This document shows, in pieces, positions 1,763 to 6,709 of a stretch of DNA of 64,000 nucleotides. Within the stretch, counting starts at the first letter, position 1. The number at the start of each line of letters is the position of its first letter. Origin of the DNA: Gemmatimonas sp. (GTDB taxonomy: Bacteria; Gemmatimonadota; Gemmatimonadetes; Gemmatimonadales; Gemmatimonadaceae); contig NZ_JAJTHI010000031.1 of NCBI RefSeq assembly GCF_021298855.1, forward strand, positions 1-64,000. Direction: 5' to 3'. The notes under the pieces are model-generated. The model worked only from the letters and a program-made list of their open reading frames with translations, made no database searches and had not been told where the DNA came from. The position numbers and the translations under genes were made by a program.

Positions 1763-4194
1763 TCGTTTCGCACGAGTGGATCAGGCAGTTCGTCACGCAC
1801 GAACTCTCCGCCCAGGACGTCGGCGAGGCGCTCAGCCGTCATTGCGTCACCCTCGACAGCATCGAAACGCTGGGGGCGCATCTCTCGGCGTTCGTCGTGG
1901 CGCAGGTGGTCGAGGCCGGCCGGCACCCCAATTCCGATCATCTCTGGGTCACCAAGGTCGATGACGGCAGCGGCACGCTGCTCGACGTGGTCTGCGGTGC
2001 ACCGAACGTGGTGGCAGGGCTCAAGTATCCCTTCGCGCGCACCGGCACCATCATGCCCGGCGGGCTCAAGATCGAGAAGCGGAAGATCCGGGGCGAAACG
2101 TCGAACGGCATGCTCTGTTCGGCGCGTGAACTGGGACTGGGAGATGAGCACAACGGCATCCTGACGCTCGACACGGAGGCGGCGCCCGGTACCCCGCTGC
2201 TCGACGTGCTGGCTCTCGCCGATGCCCGCCTCGACCTCGATGTGCTGCCGAATCGTCCCGACCTGCTGTCGCACCTCGGCGTGGCGCGCGAAGTGAGTGC
2301 CATTGTCGGGGCGCCGCTGCGCCCCGTGCCCGCAGAGCTGAGCGCGCCCCTGTCGTCGCTGGCCGCCAAGACGGGCCCCTCGGCGGTGCAGGGGGAGCAC
2401 GCCGCGGTGCGTGTGGAGGACGAAGGGGCTTGCCCGCGCTATGTGGCCGTGATCATCAAGGGCGTCTCGGTGGGGCCAAGCCCTGCCTGGCTCACGCAGC
2501 GCCTCGAGGCCATCGGCGCCCGGAGTATCAGCAACATCGTCGACGCCACCAATTACGTGCTGCACGGTTTCGGACAGCCGGTGCACGCTTTCGACCTGGC
2601 CACGCTGGCGGAGCGCCGCATCGTCGTGCGTGCCACGCGCGCCGAAGAGCGGATCGTCACCCTGGACGGCGTCGATCGCCCGTTGGCGGTGGATACCGTC
2701 TGCATCTGCGATGCGACCTCTCCGGTGGCGCTGGCCGGGGTCATGGGTGGACAGCGTAGTGAAGTCACTGCGTCCACGACCGACATCCTGCTCGAAGTCG
2801 CGGTGTTCGAGCCGCGGTTTGTGCGGGCGGTACGCAAGGCGGTGGGACTCAGCACCGATGCCAGCTATCGCTACGAACGGGGCATCGACGCGGGCAACAC
2901 CCAGCACGTGGCCCGTTTGGCGGCGGCGCTCATCACGCAGGTGGCCGGGGGCGAGGTCGTCGAGGTCCTCGACGTGGGCGGGGCACCAGTCGCGAGAGCG
3001 GCGGTGTCACTGCGTCCCGCCAGGCTGGCACGCCTCCTTGGCATGGCCGTTCCGGTCACCGAGATCACGCGGCATCTCGAAGCGCTCGGGTGCACCGTCT
3101 CAGGCGATGGCGACGCGCTCGCCGTCCAGCCGCCCACGTGGCGTCATGATCTGCTGCTCGAGGTGGACCTGATCGAGGAAGTGGCACGGCTCGTCGGGTT
3201 TGACGCGCTCCCGGACGAGTTGCGGCCGTTCCGCCCCGGATCGGCGCCGGATCACCCGTTGCACCTTGCCTCTCGTCGGGTGCGCGACGTGCTCGTGTCC
3301 GCAGGGCTTGCCGAAGCGCGACCCATGCCCTTCACCGCCACTGGTAACGAGGCGTCGCCGCGCGTCCGCAATCCGCTGGCGGAGGATGAGCCCTTTCTTC
3401 GCGCGTCGGTACTGGACACGCTGGCCCGTCGGGCCGAGTACAACCTGTCTCGCATGCAGGGCAACCTGCGACTCTTTGAAATCGGCAACGTGTTTCTGCC
3501 GCGGCCCGCGCGACTGCCGCTGGAGGAATTGCGTGTGGGAGCCCTGCTCATGGGCACGCGCCGTCCGGCGCACTTCACTGAACCGACGCCGCCCGCCTTC
3601 GACGCGTGGGATGCGAAAGCGTTGGCTGAGAGCGCGGCGCGTGCGGCCTTCCCCGGTCGCGCGGTGCGCATGGTGGCGGTCGAAGGAACGCCCGCCTGGC
3701 AGGTGGAGGTTGATGGGCGCGGAATCGTGGGCATGGTGCATGCGGTCCCGCTCGATCGTCCGGCCTGGGCAACCGAGGCGTGGGGCGTCGAGCTGACCCT
3801 CGGGGTGCTGTCCTCAGATGATGTGGCGCCCCCCGGCGCTCACGCGCATGCCCCCGCCGAGCGGGAGGTGGGCGCCACCCATGCGGTTCGCGCCTCGGCG
3901 CTGCCCACCACACCAGCCGCCGAGTTCGACGTGGCGCTCCTGGTACCCGATACCTTGGCGGCGGCGGCGGTCGAACACGCCATCGTTTCGGCCGGAGGGG
4001 AGTTGCTGGAGCAGGTGCAGCTGTTTGATGAGTTTCGCGGAGCGGGCATTCCGGCCGGTATGCGCAGCCTGGCGTGGCGGCTGACGTGGCGGCACCCGGA
4101 GCGCACATTGCGCGACAAGGAGATCGAAGGGCGGCGGGCACGGCTGCTGGAGCTTCTCGAAAAGGACCTGGGGATCCGTCCGCGTGCGACCTGA
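1759..4194 (+). CDS. pheT: phenylalanine-tRNA ligase, beta subunit
   Basis: The beta subunit of PheRS binds tRNA and edits mischarged Tyr-tRNA. It has 811 residues, typical of the family (about 790-810). Domain order visible in the sequence: EMAP-like tRNA-binding OB fold near residues 40-150 (HPNSDHLWVTKV and CSARELGLG), the B3/B4 editing region (ISNIVDATNYVLHGFGQPVHAFD), the B5 domain, a pseudo-catalytic domain, and a C-terminal ferredoxin-fold anticodon-binding domain (the last ~95 residues, with WRLTWRHPERTLRDKEI). The start is fixed by the ATGA overlap with pheS; longer in-frame readings upstream run inside pheS. Its 3' end overlaps the next gene by 11 bases. Confidence 0.96.
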   Translation: MIVSHEWIRQFVTHELSAQDVGEALSRHCVTLDSIETLGAHLSAFVVAQVVEAGRHPNSDHLWVTKVDDGSGTLLDVVCGAPNVVAGLKYPFARTGTIMPGGLKIEKRKIRGETSNGMLCSARELGLGDEHNGILTLDTEAAPGTPLLDVLALADARLDLDVLPNRPDLLSHLGVAREVSAIVGAPLRPVPAELSAPLSSLAAKTGPSAVQGEHAAVRVEDEGACPRYVAVIIKGVSVGPSPAWLTQRLEAIGARSISNIVDATNYVLHGFGQPVHAFDLATLAERRIVVRATRAEERIVTLDGVDRPLAVDTVCICDATSPVALAGVMGGQRSEVTASTTDILLEVAVFEPRFVRAVRKAVGLSTDASYRYERGIDAGNTQHVARLAAALITQVAGGEVVEVLDVGGAPVARAAVSLRPARLARLLGMAVPVTEITRHLEALGCTVSGDGDALAVQPPTWRHDLLLEVDLIEEVARLVGFDALPDELRPFRPGSAPDHPLHLASRRVRDVLVSAGLAEARPMPFTATGNEASPRVRNPLAEDEPFLRASVLDTLARRAEYNLSRMQGNLRLFEIGNVFLPRPARLPLEELRVGALLMGTRRPAHFTEPTPPAFDAWDAKALAESAARAAFPGRAVRMVAVEGTPAWQVEVDGRGIVGMVHAVPLDRPAWATEAWGVELTLGVLSSDDVAPPGAHAHAPAEREVGATHAVRASALPTTPAAEFDVALLVPDTLAAAAVEHAIVSAGGELLEQVQLFDEFRGAGIPAGMRSLAWRLTWRHPERTLRDKEIEGRRARLLELLEKDLGIRPRAT

Positions 4195-4624
4195 GACCGC
4201 CGCTTTTCGCGAGCTGGACACGCTCGTCCGCAACCTCAGTGACCAGTTGGCGGGATTCCGCCGTCGGGCACTGGCCGCGGAGGCGCGTACTCGCGAACTG
4301 GAGCAGATCCTGGCCGGCATGACCGGCAAGCTGGACGAAGTACGCCAGCAGATGGAGGACACCCAGGCATCCCGGGACGCGGCGGTGGTGCAGGCGAAAA
4401 CGCTCGAGGCACAGCTCGCGGCCGCCCGCGGGGAGGTGCAGCGCGTGCAGGCCGCCGTTGCCGAGCTATCGGCCAAGGCCACCCCCGAGGCGAGGGACCA
4501 GGAGCTGGCCCGCGAGAATGAGCGACTCAAGGCCCGGCTTGGCGAGGCGCGCGAGAAGGCGGCGCAGCTGAGCGAGAAGGTGCGCTTCCTGCGCCAGCAG
4601 ATCGGACTGGGAGCCGACCGATGA
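4184..4624 (+). CDS. predicted coiled-coil protein of unknown function
   Basis: Protein of 146 residues with no recognised enzymatic motif. Almost the whole length is rich in E, A, R, Q and L with heptad-like spacing (for example LEAQLAAARGEVQRVQAAVAE), so a long alpha-helical coiled coil is expected. There is no signal peptide and no membrane segment. It starts at GTG 4184 inside the end of pheT and its stop overlaps the zapA start (ATGA, 4621-4624). Its place directly before zapA suggests a partner in cell division, perhaps in the manner of the coiled-coil protein ZapB, but that is inference from position only. Confidence 0.8.
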   Translation: MRPETAAFRELDTLVRNLSDQLAGFRRRALAAEARTRELEQILAGMTGKLDEVRQQMEDTQASRDAAVVQAKTLEAQLAAARGEVQRVQAAVAELSAKATPEARDQELARENERLKARLGEAREKAAQLSEKVRFLRQQIGLGADR

Positions 4625-4932
4625 TCGATCCCAAATCGGTGGTCAAGGTGCGCATCATGGGCGAGGAGTACACGTTGCGAACGGAAGCTTCGCCCGAGCA
4701 CACCCGCCTGGTGGCGGAACATGTCGATCGGACGATTCGCACCATTCTCAGCGGCAGTGCCACCATGGAGACCCACAAGGCTGCCATTCTGGCTGCACTG
4801 CAGTTGACCGATGAGCTCTTTCGGGAACGGTCGGCGATCGATGGGTTGACCACCGACATGCGCCAGCTGGCCTCCGACATCCGCCCGCTTCTGCCCCCTG
4901 CCAAGCGCGGCGAGGAACCGGGAGGCGCCTAG
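4621..4932 (+). CDS. zapA: cell division protein ZapA
   Basis: ZapA is a small cytosolic protein that bundles FtsZ filaments at the division site. The 103-residue protein shows the family pattern: a short N-terminal beta region (KVRIMGEEYTLRTEASPEHTRLVAEHVDRTIR) followed by a helical dimerisation region (THKAAILAALQLTDELFRER). It is translationally coupled to the upstream coiled-coil gene by an ATGA overlap. A 7-base-pair GC hairpin with a CTTC loop follows 14 bases after the stop. Confidence 0.9.
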   Translation: MIDPKSVVKVRIMGEEYTLRTEASPEHTRLVAEHVDRTIRTILSGSATMETHKAAILAALQLTDELFRERSAIDGLTTDMRQLASDIRPLLPPAKRGEEPGGA

Positions 4933-4946
4933 CAGGTGGGCCCGTT

Positions 4947-4964
4947 GCGGGCCCTTCGGCCCGC
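4947..4964 (+). terminator. hairpin after zapA (terminator-like)
   Basis: A 7-base-pair GC-only stem (GCGGGCC with GGCCCGC) closes a CTTC tetraloop. There is no T-run after it, so it is a weak candidate for the end of the pheST-zapA transcript. It directly precedes the larger rod-like fold at 4970-5069. Confidence 0.35.
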
Positions 4965-4969
4965 CCGTA

Positions 4970-5069
4970 CTATCTGGTGAGCGGCGCTCGTCGACGCTGG
5001 GCAGGCGGAGGTGCGCGCGCGGTCGCGCGACTTCCCCGACCGGCCGCCGTCGGCGCCGCAGACCGATAG
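4970..5069 (+). ncRNA. candidate structured RNA: 100-base rod-like hairpin before rny
   Basis: The closing stem is CTATC(T)GGT (4970-4978) with ACCGATAG (5062-5069), then tandem GA/AG mismatches (4979-4980 against 5060-5061), then a perfect 7-base-pair stem GCGGCGC (4981-4987) with GCGCCGC (5053-5059). Shorter helices continue inwards (GACG 4993-4996 with CGTC 5048-5051). The tip is a 12-base-pair hairpin, GGAGGT(G)CGCGCG (5007-5019) with CGCGCGACTTCC (5024-5035), loop CGGT. Two small hairpins follow (5071-5083 and 5092-5106). It may be a separate small RNA or the rny leader. The 6S RNA gene adjoins zapA in many bacteria, but I cannot match this sequence to the 6S consensus. Confidence 0.35.
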
Positions 5070-5122
5070 AGTGAGCGGCTCACGATCCAACCCGCGCAGC
5101 GCGCGGTGGAGTATAGATCCCC

Positions 5123-6709
5123 ATGGGAGATTTCCCACTTGCAGCGCTCCTTGGCGCGGCGGGCGTTGTCGCGGCTGTCGTTGGCTTCGTGTTCGGGCGG
5201 CGGTCCGGACGCGCCATCGAGATCGCTGCCCAGCAGCGCGCCAAGGCAACGGCGGAAGACACGGCCACCCGCATTCTTGACGAAGCGCGTCGTGAATCGG
5301 AGACGATTCGCAAGAGTGCCGCTGTGGCAGGGCGTGAAGAAGTGCTGCAGCTGCGCGAGTCCCTCGAGCAGGAGCTTCGGCAGCGTCGCGGTGACATTGA
5401 GCGGGAGGAAAAGCGCGTACAGGATCGCGAGGCCCAGCTCGACCGCGCCCGCGAGTCGCTGGAGGGACGGGAGCACGAGGTGCAGCGACGTGCCCAGGAA
5501 TGCATTGGGCGTGAGCAGGCTACCACGGCCCGTGAGCAGGAGCTGGAGCGCCTGGTCGGCGAAGAACGACGGCGGCTCGAGCAGCTCGCCGGGCTGAGTG
5601 CCGAGCAGGCCAAGGCCGAGCTCGTGCGGCGGCTCGAAGACGAGGCCATGGCCGATGCCGCCAGTCGCCTGCGCGAGATCCGCGAAACGGCCAAGCGCAA
5701 CGCCGAGCGGGAGGCCAAGAAGATCGTGGCGCTGGCCGTGCAGCGCGTGGCCGCCGAGACAACGGCGGAGAGCACGGTGTCGGCGGTGTCGCTGCCCAAT
5801 GATGAAATGAAGGGGCGCATCATCGGCCGGGAAGGGCGCAATATCCGCGCGTTCGAGCTCGCGACCGGTGTGGATGTCATCATCGACGATACGCCCGACA
5901 CCGTGGTCGTGTCCTGTTTCGATCCGGTACGCCGGGAGACCGCGCGGCTGGCGCTGGAGAAGCTGGTGAGCGACGGCCGCATTCACCCCGGGCGCATCGA
6001 AGAGGTGGTGGTGAAGGCTCGCAAGGAGGTCGAGGCCGCCATCATCGAAACGGGTGAGCAGGCTGCTTACGATGTCGGGGTGGCCGGACTCCATCCGGAG
6101 CTCGTCAAGCTCATCGGGCGCATGCGGTGGCGGACCAGCTACGGTCAGAACATCCTGGCGCACAGCAAGGAGGTCGCGTGGCTGGCAGGGATGATGGCCG
6201 CCGAACTGGGGCTCGATGTGCAGCTGGCGAAGCGTGGGGCGCTGCTGCACGACATCGGCAAGGTGCTCACGCATGAGCACGAGGGCACGCACGTGCAGCT
6301 CGGGGTGGAGGTCGCCACCAAGTACGGCGAGAATCCGCTGGTGGTCAACTGCATCGCGGCGCACCACGATGATGTGCCCCACGAAAGCGAAGTCTCGGTT
6401 CTGGTGCAGGCGGCCGACGGGATCTCGGGCTCGCGTCCCGGCGCCCGCCGGGAGGCCTTCGAAACCTATGTCAAGCGTCTCGAAGGGCTCGAACGGATTG
6501 CGGCGAGTTATCGTGGGGTGGAGCGCGTGTTCGCCATTCAGGCCGGACGAGAGGTGCGGGTGGTCGTGACGCCCGAGCAGGTCGACGATACCCGCATGAC
6601 GGCCATGAGCGAAGAGATCGCGCGCCGTATCGAGTCGGAGCTGCAGTACCCGGGCCAGATCAAGGTCGTGGTCATTCGCGAAAGCCGGGCGGTGGACTTT
6701 GCGCGCTGA
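5123..6709 (+). CDS. rny: ribonuclease Y
   Basis: RNase Y is a membrane-anchored endoribonuclease that starts mRNA decay. The 528-residue protein has an N-terminal membrane segment (about residues 5-25, [20 protein letters not shown]), a long charged coiled coil (about 30-200), a KH RNA-binding domain near residue 229 ([16 protein letters not shown]) and an HD phosphohydrolase domain with the key HDIGK motif near residue 375. Length and order match the family (about 520 residues). A structured spacer precedes the ATG start at 5123. The stop lies inside the folD start region, so rny and folD are coupled. The neighbourhood with zapA is common in bacteria. Confidence 0.96.

Follow-up and report, generated by a model that had tools for sequence, protein, structure and literature searches.

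A Putative Promoter and Structured 5′ Leader of the RNase Y Gene in Gemmatimonas

In the Gemmatimonas sp. genome analyzed here, the spacer upstream of rny (the gene for RNase Y) is, on balance, best explained as rny's own promoter followed by a functional 5′ leader of ~143 nt that takes part in rny control. That there is a promoter plus a leader, whatever the leader's job, is very likely; that RNase Y exerts feedback on its own message through the leader is a more tentative proposal by analogy. Comparison of related genomes suggests that a promoter-like hexamer pair, a hairpin at the Shine-Dalgarno region, and an AUAGAUC motif are conserved, that the rod-shaped structure between them drifts in sequence while apparently retaining part of its folding, and that 6S RNA is absent from the spacer. 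To our knowledge, control of the supply of the main decay-initiating ribonuclease has been detailed for few bacteria, Bacillus subtilis among them (PMC10303841). Features are collected in Table 1, with coordinates referring to the window, the 64,000-nt stretch of DNA that was analyzed.

Table 1. Features of the zapA–rny region (window coordinates)
Feature	Position	Strand	Basis
zapA (gene 5′ of the spacer)	4621..4932	+	ORF; as tblastn query finds a homologue adjoining rny in relatives
-35-like hexamer TTGCGG	4945..4950	+	Kept in 20 of 21 genus spacers
-10-like hexamer TACTAT, predicting a start near 4980	4968..4973	+	Conservation; start site inferred
Predicted rny 5′ leader, 143 nt	4980..5122	+	Predicted start to rny ATG
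GC-rich rod, fast-drifting sequence	4981..5059	+	Folds; end closure above shuffles; fold energy retained between L001 and L002
First AUAGA, shortly after the rod	5066..5070	+	17 of the 21 genus leaders have this upstream ATAGA
Hairpin that partly covers the Shine-Dalgarno-like GGTGGAG (5105-5111)	5086..5110	+	RNAfold; 3′ conservation across the aligned genus spacers
AUAGAUC next to the start codon, candidate site for RNase Y	5113..5119	+	ATAGA present in 18 of the 21 leaders of the genus
rny, RNase Y, 528 aa	5123..6709	+	ORF; as query matches 58 of 59 family genomes, mostly near full length

The Locus and Its Promoter-Like Elements

The genes flanking the spacer, which we take to be zapA and rny in line with the original prediction, are separated by 190 nt (zapA ends at 4932 and rny starts at 5123). 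The genus comparison used 21 spacers: a search of 25 genus genomes (host included) supplied 20 and G087 the remaining one; five of the 25 (G005, G006, G010, G011, and G014) gave no match at the zapA–rny place, and loci L023-L026, L028, and L030 were left out as repeats of genomes already in the set. On the other side of zapA, an ORF of 146 aa (4184-4624), coiled-coil-looking by eye, lies between zapA and what is presumably a pheT-like gene. The zapA–rny spacer is nearly absent in some genera (L041, L052, L081, and L082), which therefore have no leader of the window's kind.

Amid otherwise unalignable sequence, TTGCGG stands exactly 17 nt before TACGTT or TACTAT in 20 of the 21 genus spacers; the exception (L020) has TTGCTA at the -35-like place. 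The -10-like place is occupied by TACGTT in 18 spacers and by TACTAT in three. These hexamers were chosen by eye from the genus spacers, they match the Escherichia coli consensus poorly, and a generic sigma-70 pattern scan scores no promoter site at the pair. A comparable pair (TTGCGC-17-TACAAT) is found upstream of the 6S RNA gene of the host genome. With the generic scan negative, the case for the hexamer pair therefore rests on conservation and on the similar pair at the host 6S gene, not on consensus.

The Conserved 3′ Part of the Leader

The 3′ part of the leader carries a hairpin over the Shine-Dalgarno region with an AUAGA site on either side. The first AUAGA is absent from four of the 21 genus leaders, and the ATAGA beside the start codon is varied to ATAAA or ATATA in the remaining three. 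Both sites are predicted to be comparatively open, with mean unpaired probabilities of 0.77 for the start-codon ATAGA (variants included) and 0.58 for the upstream copy; the leader as a whole averages 0.33, and its A/U letters 0.53. Unpaired AU-rich sites are few in the leader, and the conserved ones are the AUAGA(UC) motifs beside structure.

The heptamer ATAGATC occurs once in the window, which is not above chance for a bare heptamer. Within its GGAG context (GGAGNATAGAT), AUAGAUC occurs a single time in the 4.09-Mb host genome, at rny, so this is not a general ribosome-site context. In a wider set of 42 spacers for which the rny start could be placed, ATAGA is found in the last 24 nt of 34; among the other eight, three carry a variant, four seem truncated by misplacement of the start, and one (L054) lacks the motif.

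The Rod and Its Evolution in the Genus

A continuous rod of about 100 nt followed by two small hairpins had originally been predicted for the spacer. Folding of 4933-5122 with RNAfold reproduces the rod in shape: an 8-bp closing stem with one bulge (4970-4978/5062-5069), tandem G-A/A-G mismatches (4979-4980/5060-5061), a 7-bp stem beginning at 4981, and a 12-bp tip interrupted by a bulge. One of the small hairpins, that at the Shine-Dalgarno region, also appears, but the other (GTGAG-CGG-CTCAC, 5071-5083) can be read in the sequence and is missing from the minimum-energy folds; L003-L005 and L029 are without this pairing.

The full spacer (4933-5122) folds with a z score of -2.77 relative to shuffles (two of 200 as good), and against dinucleotide shuffles the score is -3.7 for 4970-5069 (one of 300 as good) and -2.7 for 4970-5106 (three of 300). 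Control windows of 105 nt over the 64 kb have a mean z of -0.20 (sd 1.12), with six of 100 below -2 and three below -3. The closing stem's 5′ arm overlaps the -10-like TACTAT, however, and a transcript starting near 4980 would be without it, whereupon the excess stability is gone: the fold from 4978, with the arm left out, has a z of -0.75 (22 of 100 shuffles as good), and that of 4980-5150 a z of -0.93 (39 of 200). In addition, since 18 of the 21 genus spacers have TACGTT, by inspection the closing stem of the window cannot form there. The predicted rod is confirmed in part.

These scores give some weight to the possibility that rny has a promoter and a leader in which the rod has no specific job, the GC-rich spacer simply folding and selection acting on the promoter and the ribosome-binding region only; we consider this a credible minority reading. 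Also in its favor, the stretch separating the hexamers from the AUAGA motif cannot be aligned over the genus, end closure is weak in seven of 12 lineages, and two-sided changes are few (see below). RNAalifold on the 21 genus spacers finds little except the 3′ hairpin. Fold energy from the inferred start ranges from a z of -3.75 to +0.95 over the 21 leaders.

Against a rod without a job stands the tendency of the leader to close end to end more than its shuffles do, with a combined p of 0.003 over 12 lineages in a test with analyst-chosen lineage grouping, averaging of p within lineages, and end patterns for leaders without ATAGA. The signal is uneven. Low values came from L010 (0.02), L001/L002 (0.024), L019 (0.04), L003/L004/L029 (0.054), and L007 (0.06), but p was 0.1 or more in seven of the 12 lineages, where it ranged from 0.12 to 0.71 (L005, L006, L008/L014, L009/L020, L011, L015/L016, and L012/L013/L017/L018, the last at 0.12).

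Fold energy is likewise kept between nearest relatives, as judged by the share of random mutants that fold as well as the real descendant; six of 17 such tests, uncorrected, fall below 5%. From L001 to L002 the fold is kept through 14 substitutions, and 0.7% of random mutants are as stable (14.7% in reverse). The corresponding values are 0.3% for L003 to L029 (reverse 11.7%), 0.5% for L004 to L029, 1.5% for L003 to L004 (1-4 substitutions), 11% for L008 to L014 (reverse 2.8%), and 38% for L012 to L019 (reverse 4%). Further shares were obtained from L018 to L019 (41%), L015 to L016 (28%), and L009 to L020 (66%; reverse 15.5%), and L012 gave 10.5% toward L018, 73% toward L013, and 8.5% toward L017 (1-4 substitutions each).

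Covariation in the zapA–rny spacers of relatives had originally been proposed as a check on the rod. The closure test and the kept fold energies speak for a structure, but two-sided changed pairs number only 0-2 per genus comparison, so that direct compensatory evidence is thin, and the rod is unalignable. Taken together, the comparisons support a rod structure in the genus moderately and unevenly. A further point against a rod without a job is that a covarying RNA is kept in the same leader of sister genera.

A Covarying rny-Leader RNA in Sister Genera

A GUAG...GUUAG-type motif is present in 31 of 46 non-genus spacers, as found by expressions tuned on the same sequences. An initial RNAalifold run on these 31 leaders missed a long hairpin that was revealed by single-sequence folding and realignment of 20 of them; the 11 omitted leaders are more divergent. 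The resulting covariance model (R1) consists of a GUAG hairpin and the long hairpin, whose 7-nt loop is conserved, and at E 0.01 it reaches seven of the 11 omitted leaders (L036, L048, L050, L057, L059, L077, and L083).

In the 20 aligned rows, 81% of the cells of the long hairpin are paired and 12 of its 16 pairs have two-sided changes. For the whole structure, which was drawn from the same rows, the covariation score was reached by 0 of 500 shuffles and the two-sided count by two of 500. In 19 rows outside the model, aligned with some reliance on it and including some near relatives, 90.6% of the hairpin's cells are paired and nine of 14 pairs show two-sided changes, with shuffles reaching these measures in 0 and three of 500 cases. 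Pairing in the short GUAG hairpin, as drawn, is weak (50% and 54%). The Rfam models, applied to 12 sister loci, gave no family at threshold and only two sub-threshold snoRNA matches. By its pattern of substitutions, the rny leader of the sister genera holds a structured RNA with covarying pairs that belongs to none of the Rfam families, a stronger result than the genus rod.

At E 0.05, R1 has matches in 44 of 200 phylum genomes; 36 of these (37 places) score 2.4e-10 or better, and all 36 belong to the window's family. One genome (G217) carries two matches (G217:C34:668-759 and G217:C11:918-1009), from either duplication or assembly redundancy. Nine genus genomes are without R1 among the genomes listed. 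A search of 24 sources gave no credible match in the window or in the 21 genus spacers: weak matches in the window have E values of 0.34 and above with none in the spacer, and only L006 has a match touching a spacer (E 0.61). The idea that the window rod is kin to the sister-genus RNA was dropped for this reason. In a neighboring genus, L031 and L032 have a TACGTT-type hexamer and a Shine-Dalgarno hairpin with a much shorter leader, and neither the rod nor an R1 match.

The sister-genus RNA nevertheless resembles the window leader in its setting, occupying the same place after a promoter-like pair and before a Shine-Dalgarno hairpin and AUAGAUC. It lies about 65-110 nt upstream of rny (L111-L140), which is directly downstream in all 30 fetched R1 loci, 16 of them outside the model. 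Since zapA was found at only 27 of these loci, more than 400 nt off in six, and not found at three, the RNA belongs with rny. Of 80 loci from a scan of genome contigs, most were distant RNase Y loci; R1 was applied to two, of which one matched (L143) and one did not (L145).

This association also bears on whether the spacer encodes an independent trans-acting small RNA, expressed from the promoter-like pair or processed out of a zapA–rny message. A rod of ~80-100 nt directly after a promoter-like pair would suit such an RNA, but no terminator-like site was found by a scan of 4600-5200, the conserved 3′ part extends into the rny Shine-Dalgarno, and the sister-genus RNA accompanies rny, not zapA. 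We regard a small RNA of this kind as quite improbable.

A Possible Mechanism and Comparison with Known Leaders

In E. coli, rne, which encodes a major decay endonuclease, has a structured leader and is subject to feedback on its own mRNA. The rne product belongs to another enzyme family, and no Rfam family overlaps the window spacer. The E. coli rne 5′ UTR is mentioned in PMC10303841 and PMC10989929.

A close likeness by description is B. subtilis rny, which according to PMC10303841 has a 5′ UTR of 164 nt and is transcribed from a sigma-A promoter. RNase Y is described there as limiting its own message through cuts in this leader and at the beginning of the coding frame, as part of autoregulation (PMC10303841). 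The two systems have the gene itself in common and, as predicted for the window, would also share a primary-sigma-type promoter, a leader of similar length (164 versus ~143 nt), and structure over the ribosome-binding site. They differ in composition: the 50 5′-proximal nt of the B. subtilis leader are reported to be 76% A/U with one stem-loop (PMC10303841), whereas the window has a GC-rich rod and its AU sites are two short motifs.

On the reading favored here, transcription of rny would begin near 4980 and yield a leader with a 5′-terminal rod and, after it, the Shine-Dalgarno hairpin flanked by two short AUAGA sites that are mostly unpaired. Feedback would be the likeliest way for such a leader to act: the rod might shield the leader's 5′ end, and free RNase Y would cut its own message at the AUAGA sites. 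In Streptococcus pyogenes, RNase Y is reported to prefer cleavage after G (PMC7101322), which would fit a cut between AUAG and AUC. A leader through which RNase Y controls its own mRNA had been suggested originally as an alternative to 6S RNA. The hexamer pair, the Shine-Dalgarno hairpin, AUAGAUC, and the covarying sister RNA favor the leader; the self-control is carried over from B. subtilis and may apply here.

A broader and rather unlikely possibility is that this family has a cis-acting RNA of a new class, one sensing or controlling RNase Y; it would sit at what is the 6S locus of some other families of the phylum and stay with rny even when zapA is no longer nearby, and in the window's genus a fast-evolving rod of unrelated sequence would have taken over its job. 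A covarying rny-leader RNA in 36 genomes of one family would allow one to ask whether RNase Y feedback is general.

The 6S RNA Gene

The rod shape and the place beside zapA had pointed to 6S RNA (RF00013). The place was well chosen, as 6S RNA follows zapA in L084 and, in L085 and L087, separates zapA from rny, all three being from other families of the phylum. The spacer itself has no match to a 6S model, and the likelihood that it encodes a 6S or 6S-2 type RNA binding RNA polymerase is close to negligible. The Rfam covariance models at E up to 5 gave no match in the spacer, and the only two sub-threshold matches in 4000-6500 are both inside rny. A lineage 6S model (R2; 14 rows, host copy included) at E 10 likewise found nothing in the zapA–rny spacers of 23 sources. 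Given these results and a host 6S homologue elsewhere, the 6S identity of the spacer was dropped. Among the papers searched, none combined 6S RNA with zapA and RNase Y, with Gemmatimonadetes, or with Gemmatimonas; two mention 6S RNA, zapA, and synteny together, so the 6S-zapA neighborhood may well be in print.

RF00013 has no match in the host genome, and at E 0.1 it matches 19 of 200 phylum genomes, with one above the cut-off. Most matches in the window's family lie upstream of a gene that, from the look of its protein, is presumably queD-like, and this common locus provided a route to the host 6S gene. With a genus 6S sequence as DNA query, the host copy was recovered at 83% identity (E 1e-47). 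It is located at G000:C7:58659-58870(-), scores 158 bits with R2 (whose 14 rows contain it), and is upstream of a queD-like gene, with a GC-rich inverted repeat following (L103 and L241). The tempting reading of the spacer as 6S RNA is thereby corrected, and these bacteria are given a candidate 6S gene that RF00013 misses in the host.

At E 1, R2 has a match in 96 of 99 family genomes, a weak one in G066 (2.4e-4) and G086 (0.59); only seven have two matches, which argues against a second 6S-type RNA in the spacer. At E 0.01, it matches 111 of 119 class genomes. A queD-like gene is inside the fetched stretch at 38 of 57 6S loci (loci repeat genomes, and one, L100, is an Rfam match that R2 does not confirm), and at five of eight fetched 6S loci in a second family of the order (L251-L258). 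The 6S gene thus seems to have been relocated, being beside zapA in L084, L085, and L087 and upstream of queD in the window's family.
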